Positions 1-28,982 of a DNA stretch of 64,000 bases are shown one piece after another. The notes beneath the pieces were generated by a model, which saw only the letters and a list, made by a program, of their open reading frames with translations, did not search any database and was not told where the DNA came from. The position numbers and the translations under genes are program-made. Source of the DNA: a virus; IMG/VR virus record IMGVR_UViG_3300047557_002430, positions 1 through 64,000 of that record, one strand, 5' to 3'. Every line of letters begins with the position of its first letter. The stretch's first letter is position 1.

Positions 1-223
1 TATCGAACTCTGGAAACTTAAATCGACTTTCGTTTCCGGCGAATATTCTCAGATCTAGTCCTTGGGATTCTGCGATGGTGACGTCACGCAAAAGATTATC
101 CTTGGCAGCTTCGTAAGGTACGCCAAAAGATTCGCTTAGCTGTGTCTGTGCTGTTTCAAAGTCATTGAAAGCCTCAGCAGCTGTGGATGCCAATGAGACA
201 AGACTTGTAGTTTTGATGTTCAT
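1..223 (-). CDS. Hypothetical protein, C-terminus cut by window edge
   Basis: An ATG at 223 opens a leftward frame that stays open to the window edge (74 codons seen), beginning MNIKTTSLVSLASTAAEAF. The visible part is helix-prone and acidic and holds no motif I recognise. It is the most downstream visible member of the leftward small-gene array. There is no Shine-Dalgarno sequence before the start, as for most genes in this array. Function unknown. Confidence 0.6.
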   Translation of the reverse strand, partial: MNIKTTSLVSLASTAAEAFNDFETAQTQLSESFGVPYEAAKDNLLRDVTIAESQGLDLRIFAGNESRFKFPEFD

Positions 224-11245: not shown

Positions 11246-11321
11246 GCGCGTCTAGCACTCTGGTGAATGCAGCCGACTCATAATCGGCTAGAGGTGGGTT
11301 CGATCCCCACGACGCGCACCA
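11246..11321 (+). tRNA. tRNA-Met (CAT)
   Basis: Acceptor GCGCGTC/GACGCGC, D-stem GCA/TGC, anticodon stem GCCGA/TCGGC with loop CTCATAA, T-arm GTGGG-TTCGATC-CCCAC, and an encoded CCA. All stems pair perfectly. The CAT anticodon means elongator or initiator Met, or an Ile-CAT that is later modified; which of these was not resolved. A GCAGG/CCTGC hairpin lies just upstream. Confidence 0.9.
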
Positions 11322-11322
11322 C

Positions 11323-11406
11323 GCCTCGGTGGTGGAATTGGTATGCACAACAGATTTAAAATCTGTCGCCCGGATGGGCTTGCGGGTTCGAGTCCCGCCC
11401 GAGGTA
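11323..11406 (+). tRNA. tRNA-Leu (TAA)
   Basis: A class II tRNA with acceptor GCCTCGG/CCGAGGT (terminal G-T), anticodon stem ACAGA/TCTGT with loop TTTAAAA (anticodon TAA), a long variable arm, and T-arm GCGGG-TTCGAGT-CCCGC. CCA is not encoded. Only one base separates it from tRNA-Met, so they are co-transcribed. Confidence 0.92.
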
Positions 11407-11424
11407 CTTACACTGTTTAAAATC

Positions 11425-13985: not shown

Positions 13986-14357
13986 ATGGTTTTTGATCGT
14001 CAGTACGATTTCTCAAAGTGCTCCAACTGTGGTGAATTAACTTGCGTAACAATCGAAAGCAGACTTCAGAAAGATAAAACTAGACGGAGGAGGAAAGAGT
14101 GCACACACTGTAAGGCACGTTTTACTTATTATGAAGTGTCTGAGGAATTTTATAAACTTGCTCTTCGTAACCAAAAGCTTGTAGAAAACATTATTACGTG
14201 CTTAGACTTGAATTTTTGTACGCAATCGTCACATGCTGTATCCGTTGATGACTGTGATAACTGCGTTCACATGCGTTCCGATCGTTGCTACTTCGATTTT
14301 CCCGACGCTGGGGGATCTTTCGCGAGTGAGTGTTCAATGTTCGAACGAAAGACCTAA
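13986..14357 (+). CDS. NrdR-like zinc-ribbon protein with extra Cys-rich tail
   Basis: 123 residues. The N-terminal zinc ribbon is CSNCGE (about 12-17) with CTHCKARFTYYE (about 39-50) and intervening RRRR, closely matching the NrdR zinc-ribbon half that binds DNA. The ATP-cone domain of NrdR is absent. Instead the C-terminus has DDCDNCVHMRSDRC and ECSMF, a second possible metal site. A transcriptional regulator is likely; control of nucleotide-reduction genes is only suggested by the NrdR likeness. Confidence 0.65.
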   Translation: MVFDRQYDFSKCSNCGELTCVTIESRLQKDKTRRRRKECTHCKARFTYYEVSEEFYKLALRNQKLVENIITCLDLNFCTQSSHAVSVDDCDNCVHMRSDRCYFDFPDAGGSFASECSMFERKT

Positions 14358-14879: not shown

Positions 14880-14952
14880 GGCCCCTGCTCGGATTCGAAC
14901 CGAGAATCTACCGTTTACAAGACGGGTGCAGTAACCCTTGTGCTACAGGGGC
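14880..14952 (-). tRNA. tRNA-Thr (TGT)
   Basis: Read leftward: acceptor GCCCCTG/CAGGGGC, D-stem GCA/TGC, anticodon stem CCGT/ACGG with loop CTTGTAA (anticodon TGT), and T-arm CTCGG-TTCGAAT-CCGAG. CCA is not encoded. It is isolated and opposite in direction to both flanking genes, so it needs its own leftward promoter. Confidence 0.9.
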
Positions 14953-16532: not shown

Positions 16533-16979
16533 ATGTTTTCAAACTGGGATTACAGGTTTTTAGATATTGCACAGCGGATCTCTGAGTGGAGTAAGGATCC
16601 GTCTACAAAGGTTGGCGCAGTAGCCGTTCGTGATCGGCGCATTCTTGCCACGGGCTACAACGGCTTCCCTCGTGGGGTTGCAGATTTAAGCGAGCGCTTA
16701 GAGGACCGTCAGCAAAAACTACTGCGTACAGTCCACGCTGAGGCGAATATTGTTGCTCAATGCTCTCGGTATGGTGTCAGTTTAGAAAACTCGTCTGTCT
16801 ACATTTGGCCATTTTTGCCTTGTTCTAGCTGTTGTACGCTGCTCATTCAGACTGGCGTTACTAGGATCGTTGTGCCTGATCGACCCATACCCGATCGTTG
16901 GATGGAAAGCTTTTCTGTATCTATAGAGTTGCTTAAAGAGTCAGGAGTTGATTTGGTGTTACTGGCAGATCCTGAGTAG
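16533..16979 (+). CDS. dCMP/deoxycytidylate deaminase
   Basis: 148 residues. Zinc-binding cytidine/dCMP deaminase fold, with HAE at about 68-70 and PCSSC at about 96-100, and the substrate-loop pattern GYNGFPRGVAD typical of dCMP deaminases. It converts dCMP to dUMP, feeding dTMP synthesis for phage DNA. Length is normal. It also sits next to dTDP-sugar genes that consume dTTP. Confidence 0.88.
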   Translation: MFSNWDYRFLDIAQRISEWSKDPSTKVGAVAVRDRRILATGYNGFPRGVADLSERLEDRQQKLLRTVHAEANIVAQCSRYGVSLENSSVYIWPFLPCSSCCTLLIQTGVTRIVVPDRPIPDRWMESFSVSIELLKESGVDLVLLADPE

Positions 16980-17006
16980 TCACTAACACACAGGTTTAGT
17001 TTATTT

Positions 17007-17885
17007 ATGAAAATCTTGTTGTTTGGCGCCTCCGGGCAGTTGGGGCGTTTTCTTCAGCGCGAAAAACCTCGTGACGTCGAGTTAATTACTCCGAGTCGTA
17101 ACGAAGTTAACTTTACCTCAGGTAACTTGCTGTGCGACTTCATTATTAAAGAGAACCCTGATTGGGTTATTAACGCTGCTGCATATACAGATGTTGAGAA
17201 AGCAGAGGAGGAGCGTTTATTTGCAACTGATCTAAACCACGGTGGACCCTCGTGCATTGCGTGGGCTTGTCAGTTTACAGGTTCGAAGCTTTTACATATT
17301 TCAACGGATTACGTTTTCGATGGCACAGCAATTCACCCATATGAGCCATCCGATCCGCCAAATCCGATTAATTACTACGGCTATACAAAATTGCGAGGTG
17401 AGCAGGCAATAGCTGACATCATGTCGCCAAGCTCGTTCTGTATTCTTCGGACGAGTTGGCTATACAGCGCATTCCGCAAAAATTTTTTCGCGTCTGTATT
17501 TAAGAAGCTGTTGTTCGATAAAGATTTCAATGTTGTTAACGATCAATTCGGGCGGCCCACGTCTGCGATTTGCTTGGCCAAAGTTTGTTGGCAGATTGTT
17601 TTGAGAGGCATTACGGGGGTGCATCACTTTGCGGAAGCTCCGTCGATGAGTCGCCACGCTTTCGCGTTGAAGATCCGCTCGATCGCCGAGACCACATGCG
17701 TGGGTGATTCGCTGAGTAGCGTGTTAGCTGTGCCTTCTACAGAGTACAAAACGAGGGCTTTGAGACCACGTTATAGTGTTCTGGCTAACAGCGTATCACT
17801 GGATGAGCTGGGCCTTGGGGATAACGACTGGGAGAAAAACATAGAGACCACTATTTATGACTTTGTGTTTCAGGATCCTTCGTGA
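17007..17885 (+). CDS. rmlD: dTDP-4-dehydrorhamnose reductase
   Basis: 292 residues, an SDR-fold RmlD. NAD(P)-binding GASGQLG (about 7-13), STDYVFDG with catalytic Thr/Asp region, and YYGYTKLRGE giving the YxxxK pair. It reduces dTDP-4-keto-rhamnose to dTDP-L-rhamnose. Overlaps rmlB by 4 bases. Full length and intact. Confidence 0.9.
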   Translation: MKILLFGASGQLGRFLQREKPRDVELITPSRNEVNFTSGNLLCDFIIKENPDWVINAAAYTDVEKAEEERLFATDLNHGGPSCIAWACQFTGSKLLHISTDYVFDGTAIHPYEPSDPPNPINYYGYTKLRGEQAIADIMSPSSFCILRTSWLYSAFRKNFFASVFKKLLFDKDFNVVNDQFGRPTSAICLAKVCWQIVLRGITGVHHFAEAPSMSRHAFALKIRSIAETTCVGDSLSSVLAVPSTEYKTRALRPRYSVLANSVSLDELGLGDNDWEKNIETTIYDFVFQDPS

Positions 17886-18889
17886 ACTATTCATTCTTTG
17901 ACGGAAAGCGTGTTACCGTAACGGGCGGTCTTGGCTTTATCGGGTCTTGTGTTGTTCGCAAGCTCTTAGCTAATACGGACTGCACCTTACGCATCATCGA
18001 CAAGATGGGCGTGGGGAGTAATAAGGATTTCATTCCTCAATCTTTTGGGGACCGCTATACGATCTCACCGATTGACTTAGCGCATACGCAAAAAGTTTTT
18101 AAGGATTTCGATTACTTTCAGCCGGATATTGTTATTCACTTGGCTGCTGAGAGCCACGTTGATCGCTCGATCACTGAGCCAGCAACCTTTGTTGAAAGCA
18201 ATGTCATCGGTACGTTTTCGGTTTTGGAAGCGAGCCGACGTTTATATGAGTCGCTGCCGCCTGATAAGAAAGCCCAGTTCCGTCTGCACCACGTATCGAC
18301 GGACGAGGTTTTTGGCAGTTTGAGCGACGAAGGCGTATTTACAGAACGTTCTCCCTACAGCCCAAACTCTCCTTACTCAGCCACGAAAGCAGCGAGCGAT
18401 CATTTGGTTCGAGCGTGGTATCACACGTACGGCTTGCCCGTCACTATTTCGAACTGCAGTAATAACTTCGGCCCTTGGCAGGCTGACGAAAAGCTGATCC
18501 CCACGGTGATCCGCTCGATCGTACAGGGCAAGCCCGTTCGGTTGTATGGGGATGGTCAGAATGTGCGGGATTGGCTCTATGTGGATGATCACGTTGACGC
18601 TATTTTTAGCTGCATCGAACGGGGTGTTGTAGGCGAAACCTATTGTGTTGGTGCGCGTAATGAGGTATCTAATGTCGATCTTGTGTACAAGATCTGCCAA
18701 CACCTACTCACAACACATTTGAGTAGTGTGCGTATTATCTTTGGCGAAGATCGTCCGGGTCACGACTTTAGGTACGCGATCGACCCAAGTAAGATCGAGA
18801 GCAAGCTCGGGTGGAAGCCCAAGCATAGCTTTGACGAGGCTTTAAAGGAAACCGTACAATGGTATGTCAAATGGTACGCCCAGAACTAA
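17882..18889 (+). CDS. rmlB: dTDP-glucose 4,6-dehydratase
   Basis: 335 residues, extended SDR. NAD-binding TGGLGFIGS (about 14-22), [12 protein letters not shown], the catalytic STDEVFGSL segment, and [10 protein letters not shown] with YxxxK. It converts dTDP-glucose to the 4-keto-6-deoxy sugar, which feeds rhamnose and other deoxysugars. Translationally coupled to rmlD, and overlaps rmlA by 31 bases. Confidence 0.92.
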
Positions 18890-19689
18890 TCAAGGAGTAT
18901 TGCGGCATTATCTTGGCGGGCGGTAACGGAACCCGTCTGCACCCGATTACAAGCGTGGTGTCTAAACAGCTACTGCCTGTTTACGACAAGCCCATGATTT
19001 ACTACCCACTTGCAACATTAATGCAGATGGGTATTCAAGATATTCTCATCATTACAAAACCTCGGGATAGCGCGTTATTCAAGCAGTTGTTGGGAACAGG
19101 TGCTCCGTGGGGCATAAGCCTGACGTACGCGGAACAACCTGAGCCGGAAGGTTTAGCGCAGGCTTTTTTGATTGCTGAGGATTTTATAGCGGACAGACCA
19201 TCGGCTTTGATCCTTGGCGATAACTTATTCCACGGTCCTTTAGATTTCTCGTTTGGGTACTTTTATGGGCAGGAGGGGGCCACGGTGTTTGGCTACCGCG
19301 TCAAGGATCCCCATCGCTACGGAGTTATAGATTTTGATATCGTTGAAAATCGCGTTAAGCGGATCGTCGAAAAACCAAAAGTTCCGCCGAGCAACTACGC
19401 CGTGACCGGCCTGTACTTTTATGACAATACAGTGTGTGAACGCGCCAAGAATCTGGAGAAGTCACCCCGTGGCGAATACGAGATCACAGATTTAAATAAT
19501 ACGTATATTACGGACAGTGTTCTAAACGTTGAGCTATTGGATGAGGGTTACGTCTGGTTAGATACAGGTACGCCCGATTCCCTGCACGAGGCTGCCTCGT
19601 ATGTGCAGACGCTACAGCATCGGCAGGGTATTCGAATCGGGTGCCCTTACACTATTGCGCAGGAAAAGCTCTGGGTTCCGAGAACTTAG
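18859..19689 (+). CDS. rmlA: Glucose-1-phosphate thymidylyltransferase
   Basis: 276 residues. Nucleotidyltransferase signature [16 protein letters not shown] (about 16-31), [16 protein letters not shown], and GDNLFHG with the metal-binding Asp. It makes dTDP-glucose from dTTP and glucose-1-phosphate. The ATG at 18859 has AAGGA nine bases upstream; a second ATG at 18871 is possible. No rmlC follows: the next gene is the convergent FkbM methyltransferase, overlapping by 38 bases. Confidence 0.92.
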
Positions 19690-20386
19690 CGAAGTACATA
19701 TTGTCGAAGGGACGGATCTCGCCGACTTCATAACGCATCGCGTGGAGGAAGTGGAACAGCTCTTTTTTGTCCACTTCAAACCACGGATCGTTATTGGCTT
19801 CGAAGATCAGGGGCGGGAAGTTGTTGCGCATCAGAGTGTATCGTGCGCCCTGTAAAGCTTTGAGTTCGTTGCCTTCGATGTCGAGTTTGATTAAGCCGAC
19901 GTTTTCGAAGTGGTAGTGATCGAGGGTTACAGTCTCAACTTTCTCTTCAGTTAAGACAGTTTGGAATGGCGCTGGTTTGCGGATGGTTGAGCCGCCGCCA
20001 TCTTCAGACACGATCGACAGCGTGGTTTTTTGATTGGCGTTAGCGGGATCTGTTACTGCTTTGTTGTATGGAGTGATGTTGGTCTTTTCGTTGATGAAGA
20101 TGTTGCCGCACAGTTGGAAGTATGTACGTCGCTGCGCTTCGAATGAATGGATTTCTTTAAATTTGTCAGACAGAAGGATGGAGTAAGCGCCCATGTGAGC
20201 GCCGCAATCGATAAAGAGTTTTTCTTTGTCGCCGAAGGTTTGGCCCGCCCAGTCGATGATGGGTTTTTCGGGGATGCCGACTTGGTGCATTTGACAACGA
20301 CCAGAATCGTCGTCGTGCATCAGGAAAGCCAGGTCCGGTGTGGGTACGATGAGTCGCTTCTCCGGACCCCAAAAGTAAGTAGCCAC
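19652..20386 (-). CDS. FkbM-family methyltransferase
   Basis: 244 residues from GTG 20386. SAM-binding [16 protein letters not shown] (motif I), a middle acidic loop, and [19 protein letters not shown], the FkbM signature. These enzymes O-methylate sugars or related small molecules. Placed antisense between rmlA and a glycosyltransferase, so it probably modifies the glycan they build. Complete. Confidence 0.85.
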
Positions 20387-20431
20387 CTGGCCTTGGCATA
20401 AGTGCTAACATATTAACAGCCACAGCCGACG

Positions 20432-21199
20432 ATGACTATACCTGTTATTGGTACTGCGGTTGTCAACGCCCCTCATTGGGTTTATAGACTTTTTTACAGT
20501 ATCGATTATCCTGTTGATACATTCGTCGTATTTAATAACAACGGGCGCAACCAGATTACGGAGGAGCTTGATCTACTTACAAAAGTTCCGCACAAATATG
20601 TAAAGCGCGTGGTTGTCACGCACATGCCTTCCAACATCGGATGTTCGGGGGCCTGGAACTTAATTATCAAGTCGTTTATGAGCGCCCCGTATTGGGTGAT
20701 CACAAACCACGACTTGATGTTTACGCCGGGCTTTTTGGCGAAAGCTGTGGAGAGCGCGCAAGATGCAGAAACAGGTATCGTCCACGGGGAGAACGGAAGT
20801 TGGGATTTCTTCCTTATAAAGGACTGGGTTATCCAGCAGTTCGGTCTGTTTGATGAGAACTTATATCCCGCATACTGCGAGGATATGGATTACGGGATGC
20901 GGTTTAAGCATCGCGAGTTTAAGCGCTGTATGTCCGTCGGGGTTCCTTACTACCATGGCGAAACTGCTGGTGATTACAAAGACGGTTCTCAGACCTGGCG
21001 TAGCGAGCCTGAGCTAGCGCAGGGTATTCACTATGCTCATGAGATGAATAAACAATATTTACACGCCAAGTGGAATCCTGCGTGGCAAGCTCACGTAGAA
21101 GGCGAAGTGTATAAACACCCATTTAATAACTCAAATATCCCTATTGATTACACTGCGTACGATCTGAACTTTGTTCGTAGCAAAAACTTGGGTTTTTAG
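20432..21199 (+). CDS. Glycosyltransferase, GT2-like
   Basis: 255 residues. GT-A-like opening (VIGTAVVNAPHWVYRLFYSI), NNIGC...AWN pattern as SNIGCSGAWNLII, NHD at about 90 in the DxD position, then YPAYCEDMDYGMRFKHREF, matching the ED..... catalytic segment of GT2 enzymes. Likely transfers a sugar to a surface or virion glycan. Acceptor unknown. Confidence 0.75.
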   Translation: MTIPVIGTAVVNAPHWVYRLFYSIDYPVDTFVVFNNNGRNQITEELDLLTKVPHKYVKRVVVTHMPSNIGCSGAWNLIIKSFMSAPYWVITNHDLMFTPGFLAKAVESAQDAETGIVHGENGSWDFFLIKDWVIQQFGLFDENLYPAYCEDMDYGMRFKHREFKRCMSVGVPYYHGETAGDYKDGSQTWRSEPELAQGIHYAHEMNKQYLHAKWNPAWQAHVEGEVYKHPFNNSNIPIDYTAYDLNFVRSKNLGF

Positions 21200-24629: not shown

Positions 24630-25156
24630 TTAAAGCACAGATTGGCGATTCTACAACTGTTGGAGATTGGTTAAATAGCTTAGATAAGTCTCAAAAGGAC
24701 GCTTTTGTTTTTTACGCTAAGAACGCTACTAGCGATATTGAAGCTTACCTATACGCTCGGTTTTTAAAACCGTCGTACCAAGGGAGCATCTCTGATTTAA
24801 CCGCGTGGGTACAAGAAAAATACCCTAAAGAAGATCTTAGAAAGATCTTGTTAATAGAAATCGATAATATGAAGACAGACATTGATAATGTCCGTAATAT
24901 GACTGTGACTGGGATGTTAGATCATGCAACGGCTGCGACGAAGATCTCTGCTTTGCAAAAAGAACTTCGTTCGCATATTCAGGCTGTTCGGTCTATTTCA
25001 GATGGGCTTGATCGTCGCGGCCTTTTATTGGCTGGTGCTGATCGATGCCTCCGCGAACTAATGCAGACGTTTGATGGTCAGCCAACAATACAGAGCCTTT
25101 TAGATGACTCTGCATTGCTGGTGTGGTCTACTTTGGAGCGAGAGGAGAAATCCTAA
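24626..25156 (+). CDS. Hypothetical helical protein
   Basis: 176 residues from ATG 24626 (MIKAQIGDSTTVGDWLNSL), sharing ATGA with the previous stop. Helical and charged throughout. No motif. Last of the rightward virion-type genes before the leftward glycan pair; overlaps the GH130-like gene by 4 bases at its end. Confidence 0.5.
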   Translation: MIKAQIGDSTTVGDWLNSLDKSQKDAFVFYAKNATSDIEAYLYARFLKPSYQGSISDLTAWVQEKYPKEDLRKILLIEIDNMKTDIDNVRNMTVTGMLDHATAATKISALQKELRSHIQAVRSISDGLDRRGLLLAGADRCLRELMQTFDGQPTIQSLLDDSALLVWSTLEREEKS

Positions 25157-26232
25157 TCAACAGGCTCTAAGAGCTTCGTGATATTTTCTAGCGGGCACCT
25201 GAAGATACCGATGAAGGCGTCATTGACCCCTAGGGACATTACTAGCTCTGTGTTGTCCACGAACGCGCCGAACGGAAGGATAACCGCGGGCTGATTTGAT
25301 ACCGGATTGCCTGTGTAGTCAGTCCATACGATTAATTTGTCGTTTAAGGAACCAGAGAACAGAGGTTTCTTGATTACATGAGTCACTTTCGTAAACTCTT
25401 TATCGATTAGGTAAGCACCAAGATGGTAGAGGAGATAACGCTGTCCGTTATTATCAAAAGCTACATGTTTCCAGTGGTAGAAAATTAAGTAGCCGTACTT
25501 AAGGTCGATCGGCGGAAGGGAGTTAAATGTTGCAGCTCCTTTTGTTACCTCTTCTAAAGCGTCTGTATTTATCTCGATCTTTTTGTTGCCCTCGCTTTCG
25601 ATAATTAAGGGCCTTGTGGAATACAGGCAGCGCAACTCATCCTTATGAGAGAAGAAACACCAGTTCTTCTCTGGTACGCCTTTTTCTAAGTTTTTGCCGA
25701 TCGGAGGGATTGCTGCCCTAACAGCTTCACCGAGAGGATCGATATAGCAAACAACTACTTTCGGTTGATCGAACAGTTTCTTATTACCTTTGTTGTACTT
25801 GCTTGCGTATGTAGACCCGACAAACTGTACATACAGTTCATCATCGGGACCGACAAACAGCCGTGGGTCTTCGTAGCTGAGCCTATGTTTATTCGGTCGG
25901 ATCTTTTTAGCGCCGATGATGGTTTCATCGTCATGCAGGAGACCTAAGTAAATATCTGTTGGAGCATTATTCAGGTAGTTATAGTTTCCGTCATGTTTAA
26001 ATCCAAAGGGTTCCGGCTGCGAACGCCAGGCAATATACGTTTTGTCTTTATGTCGTTGAATTGAGGGGCTGAAGTTAACCACGGAATCTTCTGGGAGACC
26101 TCGTGCAATTCGCGTAAAGGTTCCACCTAAAGCTTCCGCTTGGCCATACACATCTGGTATGCCTTTTTGCAGAGTCCGCACCGGATACAGGCAGTGCGAA
26201 TTGGTGTGATAAAAACGGTGCGTAGTTTGCAT
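25153..26232 (-). CDS. GH130-like five-bladed propeller glycan enzyme
   Basis: 359 residues. Motifs recall the GH130/GH43-like beta-propeller superfamily: VVNFSPSIQRHKDKTYIAWR (about 48-67), YEDPRLFVG with the EDPR signature, and VPEKNWCFFSHKDELRCLYS with the EKNW motif found in GH130 and related mannosyltransferases. It may phosphorolyse or transfer mannose-type sugars. Lies 3 bases downstream of a GT4 gene, so the two form a leftward glycan unit. Substrate unknown. Confidence 0.62.
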   Translation of the reverse strand: MQTTHRFYHTNSHCLYPVRTLQKGIPDVYGQAEALGGTFTRIARGLPEDSVVNFSPSIQRHKDKTYIAWRSQPEPFGFKHDGNYNYLNNAPTDIYLGLLHDDETIIGAKKIRPNKHRLSYEDPRLFVGPDDELYVQFVGSTYASKYNKGNKKLFDQPKVVVCYIDPLGEAVRAAIPPIGKNLEKGVPEKNWCFFSHKDELRCLYSTRPLIIESEGNKKIEINTDALEEVTKGAATFNSLPPIDLKYGYLIFYHWKHVAFDNNGQRYLLYHLGAYLIDKEFTKVTHVIKKPLFSGSLNDKLIVWTDYTGNPVSNQPAVILPFGAFVDNTELVMSLGVNDAFIGIFRCPLENITKLLEPVD

Positions 26233-26235
26233 GGT

Positions 26236-27408
26236 TCAGTTCAGGAGATCTTTTACAGCGTGAGAAAAACCGGCAGCTACGTTTTCCCAGCGATATTCAT
26301 TTCGCTGCGTGACTGCGTAGCAAGAATCAGCGACTTCGTTGTAAACCTCTTTGTTGTGGTAAAGCTCATTTAGGTTTTCTACAGCATGGTCTACGTTAAT
26401 AAGACCCCGCTCCACCCCAAGATCTTTATCGACAACCCACGTGGCGATATCGGTCAGAAGTGCTGCTTCCTCCCAGATGTCGGCGCAGGCGGTGTGATTC
26501 GGGACTACCTGAGGTTTGCGGCAGCTTGCGTGTTCAAACGAAACCAGACCCCAACCTTCGCCATCTGCGGTGTTGATGCCAACGTCACAGGAGTTATAAA
26601 TCCTGTTGAGCATTTCGTCGGAAGGCGCATCCAAGTAATTAAGTTCTGTAGAGGTAAGCACCAAACGTTTTACAGGGTCTAGGCCATACTTCTGCATTTC
26701 CCTGTTAAACAGAGGAATCACATCCCACCCCATGTCCTTCGCCCCCATATGGAGGTAAAGCATGGTCTCTGGTTTATCTACAGCGAATTTGGCGAAGGCT
26801 TGGATCGTCAGATCGATCCTCTTTCTCGGTTGATTTCGGTTTGCATTCAGAACGATAAATTTATCGTTCGGCAATCCGAGAGCTGCTCTGGCTTCTTCCT
26901 TAGGCATCGGCGTAAATTTACCGACATCAACCCCGTGGGGAAGAACACCTAAACGTTCGGCTTTGACACCGTGCTTTAAAATGCGGTGAGCGCAGTTAAT
27001 CGTAAAGGTGATTGCCATATCCCAATGAGGGATATTGCGCAACATGTCAGAAAAATACGCTTCGCTATCAATTGGAAAGTAACAAACAAATTTAAACTTA
27101 AGCTCATCTTTCATGAACTGGATGCGCTCCCAAACTTGGTTGCAAATCCAGATATCCTGAAGGCAGATAAAAACGTCGGGTCTTACTTTCTGTAGGATCT
27201 CAGGAAGCCTGGGGATCCCAAAACGATCTCCGCAATGCACGTTAGTTGCGGGATACACAGTAAACGGGTAGTCGTGCGGGTCTCCCGAATAATTCAGCCC
27301 CAGCACGTGGACTTCATGTTCCTTAGCTAAATGAGCTAGTACACTATGTGTTACCCGAGCGAACCCAGTATTACAACACGCATCACCGTACCAAAGAATT
27401 TTTGCCAT
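26236..27408 (-). CDS. Glycosyltransferase family 4-like protein
   Basis: 390 residues, GT-B fold. N-terminal strand and Gly loop ILWYGDACCNTGFARVTHS, mid-region LGLPNDKFIVLNANRNQPRK (start of the second Rossmann half), and C-terminal GWGLVSFEHASCRKPQV with the GT4 E-x7-E-like donor site. Probably transfers a nucleotide-activated sugar. First gene of the leftward pair; its start faces the terminase gene. Confidence 0.82.
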   Translation of the reverse strand: MAKILWYGDACCNTGFARVTHSVLAHLAKEHEVHVLGLNYSGDPHDYPFTVYPATNVHCGDRFGIPRLPEILQKVRPDVFICLQDIWICNQVWERIQFMKDELKFKFVCYFPIDSEAYFSDMLRNIPHWDMAITFTINCAHRILKHGVKAERLGVLPHGVDVGKFTPMPKEEARAALGLPNDKFIVLNANRNQPRKRIDLTIQAFAKFAVDKPETMLYLHMGAKDMGWDVIPLFNREMQKYGLDPVKRLVLTSTELNYLDAPSDEMLNRIYNSCDVGINTADGEGWGLVSFEHASCRKPQVVPNHTACADIWEEAALLTDIATWVVDKDLGVERGLINVDHAVENLNELYHNKEVYNEVADSCYAVTQRNEYRWENVAAGFSHAVKDLLN

Positions 27409-27461: not shown

Positions 27462-28982
27462 ATGCCAAGTCGGGAAACGTTTGCGTATCGGCGGGCAGCT
27501 CAGATGCGGGCGCTACGCGCAACAGAGGATACGTCAAATACAGTTGACACTATTTATTCTAAAGCCGCTAACGACTTCCATACGTTCTGTACGCTTCTGG
27601 ATAAGCCTCCAGCAAAGCACATGTTGGAGTGGCACCAGCACCTAATTACAGGGGAATCGAACAAATACCTTTTAGATATCGCAGGGCAGAATCTCTCCAT
27701 CCTGGCGCCGCGCGGCTCAGCAAAGTCCACAGTCCTTAACCTCTTTACCGCGTGGGTTATTGGCCGCCACACGACAGCTAAGCGCCCTTTACAGATTATT
27801 TACGTCTCTTACAACATCGCAACGGCTATTCCGAAGAGCAGAATTATCCGTCAGATCATCGATTCTCCTGAATTTAAAAAAGTTTTTCCGAAAGTTCAGC
27901 TAAGAGCAGGGATGCAGTCGGATATTGGTTGGTCGATTGATTTTGAATATGCAGGTATCCCTCGGATTGGTGACGAAGAATTTACTTTACGAGCTGCTGG
28001 TCTACGAGGTTCGATTACGTCTAAACGTGCGCATCTCGTAATCGTGGATGACCCAATAAAATCGAGCGCGGATATTAAAAATCCGGCGATTCGGGAGGAG
28101 ATGAACAATAACTGGTCGTCTGTTATCGCTCCGATTATCTTCGAGGGCGGCCGAGCGCTCTGTTTGGGCACTCGATTCCACCCTCTCGACATCCATAAAA
28201 CGATGTTTGTGCCCGAAAAAGGGTGGAAGCAGGTTACGCAAGAGGCTATTACGTATAGCAACATGGGCGAACCGGTCAGTTATTGGCCCGAACAATGGTC
28301 TGCAGAGTATTTGTTGGGTCAAAAAGAGCTAGATCCTGTTGCTTTTGCCTTCCAGTATCAGCAACAGCCCGTTATGACGTCAGATTTAGTGGTTTCACCT
28401 GATTTATTGGTGAAAGGGGAAGTTGTAACCGAGTTCGATTCCCTCGCCGTGGGAATAGATCTCTCTGCAAGCAAAAATGAGACCAGTGATTACACAGCTT
28501 TTGTGTTAGGAGGGCGTTTAAAAGATAAATACTACATAATTGACGCGCATCAGTGCCGTTCGATCGGAAATTTAGAGAAAATTGATCTCTTGTGCGACAT
28601 GTTACTGGAATGGGGCATCCTTACGCAGCACGACGGTGTATTTTTACCCACATATTCGACTATTACGCTCGTTGTAGAGTCTGTCGCGTATCAAGCGTCT
28701 CTTGCGGCGGACTTAAAACGCGTTCTGATCAATGAACGTGAGCTGGGTAACCTTCATATTCATGAAGTTAAAGGTTTTAGAGGGGACAAGATCGCCCGGT
28801 TCCGTGGAACTTTAGGATTGCTAGAAAACAAGAAAATTACGTTCAATAAATACCGTAAATTCGACGCTTTGTTCGATCAGTTGATCAACGTCGGCGCCAC
28901 GGCTCACGATGACCTGCTGGACGCCTACACCTGGCTAATCCAGTTTTTACAAAGACGTGGTGAATTTTCGATTGAATACTGA
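27462..28982 (+). CDS. Terminase large subunit
   Basis: 506 residues. Walker A LAPRGSAKST (about 81-90), Walker B HLVIVDD (about 191-197), and coupling motif near GTRFHPLD. The C-terminal RNase H-like nuclease has Asp in VGIDLSASKNETSDY (about 332) and HDDLLDAYTW near 490. It pumps DNA into the prohead and cuts concatemers. Full length. No small subunit was recognised nearby. Marks the start of the head module. Confidence 0.9.
   Translation: MPSRETFAYRRAAQMRALRATEDTSNTVDTIYSKAANDFHTFCTLLDKPPAKHMLEWHQHLITGESNKYLLDIAGQNLSILAPRGSAKSTVLNLFTAWVIGRHTTAKRPLQIIYVSYNIATAIPKSRIIRQIIDSPEFKKVFPKVQLRAGMQSDIGWSIDFEYAGIPRIGDEEFTLRAAGLRGSITSKRAHLVIVDDPIKSSADIKNPAIREEMNNNWSSVIAPIIFEGGRALCLGTRFHPLDIHKTMFVPEKGWKQVTQEAITYSNMGEPVSYWPEQWSAEYLLGQKELDPVAFAFQYQQQPVMTSDLVVSPDLLVKGEVVTEFDSLAVGIDLSASKNETSDYTAFVLGGRLKDKYYIIDAHQCRSIGNLEKIDLLCDMLLEWGILTQHDGVFLPTYSTITLVVESVAYQASLAADLKRVLINERELGNLHIHEVKGFRGDKIARFRGTLGLLENKKITFNKYRKFDALFDQLINVGATAHDDLLDAYTWLIQFLQRRGEFSIEY

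Follow-up and report, generated by a model that had tools for sequence, protein, structure and literature searches.

A partial dTDP-L-rhamnose operon with an altered RmlA at a variable locus in phages related to cyanophage S-EIV1

The rml genes and their genomic setting

The window, by which we mean the 64,000 nucleotides at positions 1 to 64,000 of IMG/VR record IMGVR_UViG_3300047557_002430, carries three consecutive plus-strand genes of the dTDP-L-rhamnose pathway. The first, rmlD (17007..17885, 292 aa), encodes a dTDP-4-dehydrorhamnose reductase of the classical single-function type; rmlB (17882..18889, 335 aa, with a GTG start) encodes a dTDP-glucose 4,6-dehydratase; and rmlA (18859..19689, 276 aa, with another in-frame ATG at 18871) encodes a glucose-1-phosphate thymidylyltransferase. 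These identities were assigned with NCBIfam equivalog profiles, each of which scored over its cut-off (TIGR01214, 251.4 bits against 224.05; TIGR01181, 394.1 against 365.1; TIGR01207, 369.9 against 360.65, respectively). The reading frames overlap by 4 bp (rmlD/rmlB) and 31 bp (rmlB/rmlA), which bears out the original prediction that the three genes are tightly coupled. All three are intact and retain their catalytic residues in alignments, and RmlB can be aligned to 1g1a and 1bxk across almost its full length.

A dCMP deaminase gene lies upstream (16533..16979, plus strand; PF00383, 1.6e-19), and downstream are a gene for an FkbM-family methyltransferase (19652..20386, minus strand; PF05050, 9.4e-15, and TIGR01444) and one for a GT2-like glycosyltransferase (20432..21199, plus strand; PF00535, 3e-5; phrog_29879, 1.1e-20) that is 67-92% identical in relatives. 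Farther to the right are two glycan genes conserved across the lineage, encoding a GH130-like protein (25153..26232, minus strand; PF04041, 2.2e-8) and a GT4-like glycosyltransferase (26236..27408, minus strand; PF00534, 9.2e-9; phrog_2170, 2.7e-46), followed by the terminase large subunit gene (27462..28982, plus strand; phrog_38, 6.9e-77), which served to place the phage. Elsewhere in the record we noted a small protein that has an NrdR-like zinc ribbon (window 13986-14357; PF22811, barely over the cut-off), genes for tRNA-Met, tRNA-Leu(taa) and tRNA-Thr(tgt) that could be a clue to the host (window 11246-11407 and 14880-14952), and, on the minus strand of stretch L002 (1554-4460), a MoxR-like AAA ATPase (bpMoxR, 2.1e-55) adjoining a VWA-domain protein, possibly an ATPase/VWA module in a cyanophage.

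By terminase, the nearest isolated phage is cyanophage S-EIV1 (KJ410740), whose large subunit is 52% identical to that of the window. In IMG/VR, 386 stretches encode relatives, and the 80 that we kept have large subunits 84-93% identical to the window's. Among the relatives, GT2, GH130-like and GT4 genes form a glycan island ahead of the terminase, and its gene order is common to these 80 as far as their contigs reach. On this sequence comparison we place the window phage in a sister group to S-EIV1. Since S-EIV1 infects Synechococcus, a picocyanobacterial host is likely. In S-EIV1 itself the RmlC, NAD-epimerase and NTP-transferase families give no match, and the glycan-island queries found none in the stretch of S-EIV1 that was read.

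A variable slot holding different rml subsets

The slot, which has the dCMP deaminase gene as its left border and the GT2 gene as its right border, was compared in 47 distinct relatives in which both borders could be read. Its usual filling is an FkbM methyltransferase gene of about 750 bp. Across the relatives, the region corresponding to window 16979-20432 shows turnover of FkbM, SAM methyltransferase and rml genes; by eye, we also named an HNH-like gene in one slot (L032) and tail-fibre-like proteins in two others (L063 and L071). Just outside it, a reading frame upstream of the deaminase in another relative (L017, 313-786) has what we judged, again by eye, to be an AP2-type DNA-binding motif.

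Genes of the rml set occupy the slot in 5 of the 47 relatives. One (L272) has rmlC-D-B-A, two (L021 and L090) have rmlD as the sole one of the four, and two (L030 and L252) likewise have only rmlB. With the window, which holds rmlD-B-A, the fully visible rml slots thus comprise one complete set, one D-B-A set, two with D alone and two with B alone. Three contigs cut off on the left add L005/L084 (D-B-A), L027 (B-A) and L039 (B and then directly fkbM). Partial rml sets are usual in this lineage. For one record with a lone rmlD (G011), whose ends share no repeat, the absence of rmlA, rmlB and rmlC is firm for the slot only. A further contig with a 51% identical RmlB (L253) was rejected as a member of the lineage, since it sits among bacterial and transposase-like genes. 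The relatives emerged only through alignments; a single-protein scan with the window RmlD returned none of them.

The order of deaminase, rmlC, rmlD, rmlB, rmlA and GT2 in L272 matches that of the window, in the same slot. The L272 RmlC scores 231.8 bits with TIGR01221 against a cut-off of 155.75, and its gene, which begins 25 bp past the deaminase, shares 4 bp with rmlD. The window has rmlD itself beginning 27 bp past the deaminase, and no remnant of rmlC is found between the two genes. In phylogenetic trees the phage RmlD proteins form a clade with an SH-aLRT value of 100 and the phage RmlA proteins one with 98 (96 with L272 included); monophyly of phage RmlB is unsupported, at 36. The simplest reading would be that the window's D-B-A is C-D-B-A minus C, and both a loss here and a gain in L272 fit. 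Judged from these sequences, the window genome would have dropped, or never gained, the epimerase gene. RmlC was likewise not found in the 50 relatives' records that were searched whole, nor in L090, L252, L027 and L039; the proposition that the lineage never carries RmlC, to which those 50 negative records had pointed, was rejected on the evidence of L272.

Such a patchwork is also what would be expected if the cassette were a decaying remnant, left over from an acquired full operon that is losing its genes singly and no longer has a function. The differing subsets, or none, held by relatives fit this account. So do two individual lesions, a reading frame broken within the L272 rmlA (by sequencing error or in reality) and a Gly in place of the pocket Trp of the L084 RmlD, and decay could indeed be under way in parts of the lineage. 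We nevertheless consider decay an unlikely explanation for the cassette, given three intact window genes with their catalytic residues and the constraint seen on the lone genes. The dN/dS ratio is 0.158 for lone rmlD (L021 against L090) and 0.134 for lone rmlB (L030 against L252). Both genes are under purifying selection, and the values fit genes retained for single steps. The corresponding ratio for rmlA, window against L005, is 0.109 with dS near saturation.

The missing epimerase and the sugar produced

The full record is 87,088 bp long and carries an identical 127-bp direct repeat at both ends (window 1-127; L002 6962-7088), which leaves about 86,961 unique bases when the repeat is counted once. 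This exact terminal repeat indicates that the genome is complete, and hence that the absence of RmlC is real. PF00908, the RmlC family, has no match anywhere in the 87,088 bp, whereas 11 of 14 control genomes gave one in the same search. In tblastn against the record, the matches listed for RmlC queries of phage, E. coli and cyanobacterial origin are at chance level (best E 0.22), and since the same approach recovers RmlC next to RmlD at most bacterial loci, we regard this search as sensitive enough. Two other families of cupin sugar epimerase, Cupin_2 (PF07883) and FdtA (PF05523), are also absent from the full record. Of the canonical RmlABCD set, the genome thus encodes RmlA, RmlB and RmlD and not RmlC. 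The original prediction had noted that RmlC is missing beside the three genes, and this now holds for the complete genome; its suggestion that the epimerase might be carried elsewhere on the phage, where an rmlC near other glycan genes would have been the telling find, is refuted, as none was found.

A reductase that epimerises its own substrate, as do plant NRS/ER and bacterial GDP-fucose synthase, would make RmlC unnecessary. Single-domain epimerase-reductases of this kind exist, and giant viruses reportedly use one for UDP-L-rhamnose. The residues of the window RmlD point the other way. T100-D101-Y102, Y124, K128 and W151 align with Salmonella RmlD (1kbz) and E. coli RfbD, and the T-D-Y and Y-x3-K motifs of single-function RmlD are present. 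The column of E. coli Fcl Cys109, which we take to be the catalytic residue of that enzyme, holds Tyr102. By the Cys criterion the phage protein would not self-epimerise and should need the product of RmlC, and the self-epimerising RmlD was rejected as a candidate on this ground. As the protein also scores as RmlD and the lineage has a separate RmlC in L272, we consider a bifunctional enzyme extremely improbable.

The original prediction had also raised the making of a different 6-deoxy sugar, for example dTDP-D-fucose or dTDP-6-deoxy-D-glucose. RmlA, RmlB and RmlD would then work without any 3,5-epimerisation, and the RmlD homologue would reduce the un-epimerised 4-keto sugar. A complete genome without RmlC or another cupin epimerase is what this would look like, and natural reductions of the 4-keto group of un-epimerised dTDP-4-keto-6-deoxyglucose exist. 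The argument is weakened by an RmlD that exceeds its equivalog cut-off and retains the RmlD pocket residues when compared with 1kbz, and by the L272 operon, where these genes are preceded by a good RmlC. The proposal is therefore disfavoured, and we rate it as quite unlikely.

A related question is where the sugar goes. The dCMP deaminase borders the slot in relatives both with and without rml genes, and the phage also has a ThyX-type thymidylate synthase (record 67980-68690, L001 3980-4690; PF02511, 1.2e-36). The deaminase therefore looks like a contributor to dTMP supply in general, with no particular tie to rmlA, so that the proposed supply of dTTP to RmlA appears non-specific. The same two enzymes, and the position of the cassette next to one of them, might be taken to favour a dTDP-sugar that glycosylates modified phage DNA instead of a surface glycan, a use that has been put forward for phapecoctaviruses, which have the complete dTDP-rhamnose pathway (PMC7552041). 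We regard this as very improbable here: the deaminase occurs whether rml genes are there or not, no DNA-base hydroxymethylase was found among the families searched, and the neighbours are FkbM, GT2, GT4 and GH130-like genes.

An altered RmlA and the host pathway

The RmlA of this lineage departs from its cellular counterparts at or beside the site of inhibition by dTDP-L-rhamnose. In E. coli numbering, the window protein has the changes R220E, E255Y, E256T, F259Q and R260E. Positions 220, 255, 256, 259 and 260 read EYTQE in the window, EDTRR in L084, DYTAQ in L027 and CGLQQ in L272; E. coli and most bacteria have R-E-E-aromatic-R, and Glu255 and Glu256 are retained in all 48 aligned bacterial RmlAs. 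Arg220 is, we assume, a residue of the allosteric pocket. Glu256 of Salmonella RmlA touches dTDP-L-rhamnose, and mutating it reduces feedback inhibition (PMC10375476). In the P. aeruginosa enzyme, the lining of the allosteric pocket includes Ile256 and Arg259, and Tyr293, at the C-terminus, is close to the pocket entrance (PMC8613358). The lineage RmlAs also stop 4-6 residues past E. coli position 262, against a bacterial median of 34, and the C-terminus of the window protein is about 28 residues shorter than that of bacterial RmlA.

Among 139 class-conserved positions, seven are altered in all three intact lineage RmlAs, and three of the seven (220, 256 and 259) belong to the pocket set; the hypergeometric p of 0.0026 for this enrichment serves as a guide only, as the pocket set was in part chosen after inspection. 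The AlphaFold model of the window RmlA (pLDDT 84.6) has RmlA structures as its best PDB matches, with TM scores of 0.84-0.89, and the predicted fold is thus that of RmlA. Most other phage RmlAs, including that of phAPEC8, retain the allosteric residues and the tail. Two from other viral contigs (L291 and L306) also lack much of the tail, ending 13 and 5 residues past position 262, perhaps through independent losses of the regulatory region. A short RmlA without Arg220, Glu256 and the aromatic residue at 259 may be insensitive to feedback. Loss of the allosteric residues could reflect relaxed constraint instead of selection.

We suggest that the three genes are part of a dTDP-L-rhamnose operon that arose from, or recombines with, a full rmlC-D-B-A operon in a lineage of S-EIV1-like cyanophages and that tops up the pathway of the host, and we hold this to be rather probable. 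Phage RmlA would make dTDP-glucose and phage RmlB would convert it to dTDP-4-keto-6-deoxy-glucose; host RmlC would carry out the 3,5-epimerisation, and phage RmlD would complete dTDP-L-rhamnose. Phage or host glycosyltransferases would then probably use this donor to change a surface glycan. Supply of RmlC by the host is the best-supported reading and the most likely one; it is what we infer, as are L-rhamnose as the product, the loss of feedback and the glycan target. Of 121 Cyanobiaceae genomes, 88 have PF00908 and 33 lack it; those listed as lacking it are mostly smaller genomes. In Synechocystis PCC 6803, deletion of both rfbC candidates left rhamnose unchanged (PMC12285223), and genes annotated as RmlC in cyanobacteria may therefore neither limit nor make rhamnose. 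No rhamnosyltransferase was identified, and conservation of the glycosyltransferases around the slot does not depend on the presence of rml genes.

A more specific proposal is that RmlA in this cyanophage lineage has evolved to be insensitive to feedback, with its pocket replaced and its tail removed, and that the epimerase step is left to the host. Such an RmlA would keep working as dTDP-L-rhamnose accumulates, and infection would break the host's control over synthesis of the L-rhamnose donor. We put this forward tentatively, at somewhat short of an even chance.

Phages with whole rml operons or partial sets, including single genes, are already known (PMC7552041, PMC8224337, PMC9602691). Phapecoctaviruses such as Escherichia phage phAPEC8 (PMC7552041) have clustered rmlA, rmlB and rmlD of the same enzyme families, but with rmlC, another gene order and an RmlA whose allosteric residues and full C-terminus are intact, and phAPEC8 infects E. 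coli. T4-like cyanophages such as S-SCSM1 (PMC9602691) share with the window phage a part of the pathway, in that case a lone dTDP-glucose 4,6-dehydratase in an unrelated phage group for which neither a D-B-A operon nor a relative carrying the entire operon has been described. The Shimia haliotis prophage (PMC8224337) bears an rml operon as an auxiliary metabolic cluster, yet rfbABCD there comprises all four genes and the phage is a temperate roseobacter phage. Among cells, Prochlorococcus clusters (L170, L172 and L174) hold rmlA, rmlC, rmlD and rmlB together, and their RmlAs are the nearest cellular ones by tree path; they differ in having rmlC, the order A-C-D-B, an RmlD about 36% identical and an RmlA of the regulated type.

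What is new here is the altered RmlA and the series of operon forms at a single locus. The occurrence of C-D-B-A, D-B-A, D, B or none in the same slot, together with selection on the lone genes, argues that phages can contribute individual steps to the pathway of a host instead of bringing a self-sufficient one. If feedback on RmlA has truly been lost, the enzyme would parallel in nature the desensitised RmlA obtained by engineering, and would clearly exemplify a phage lifting a metabolic brake.
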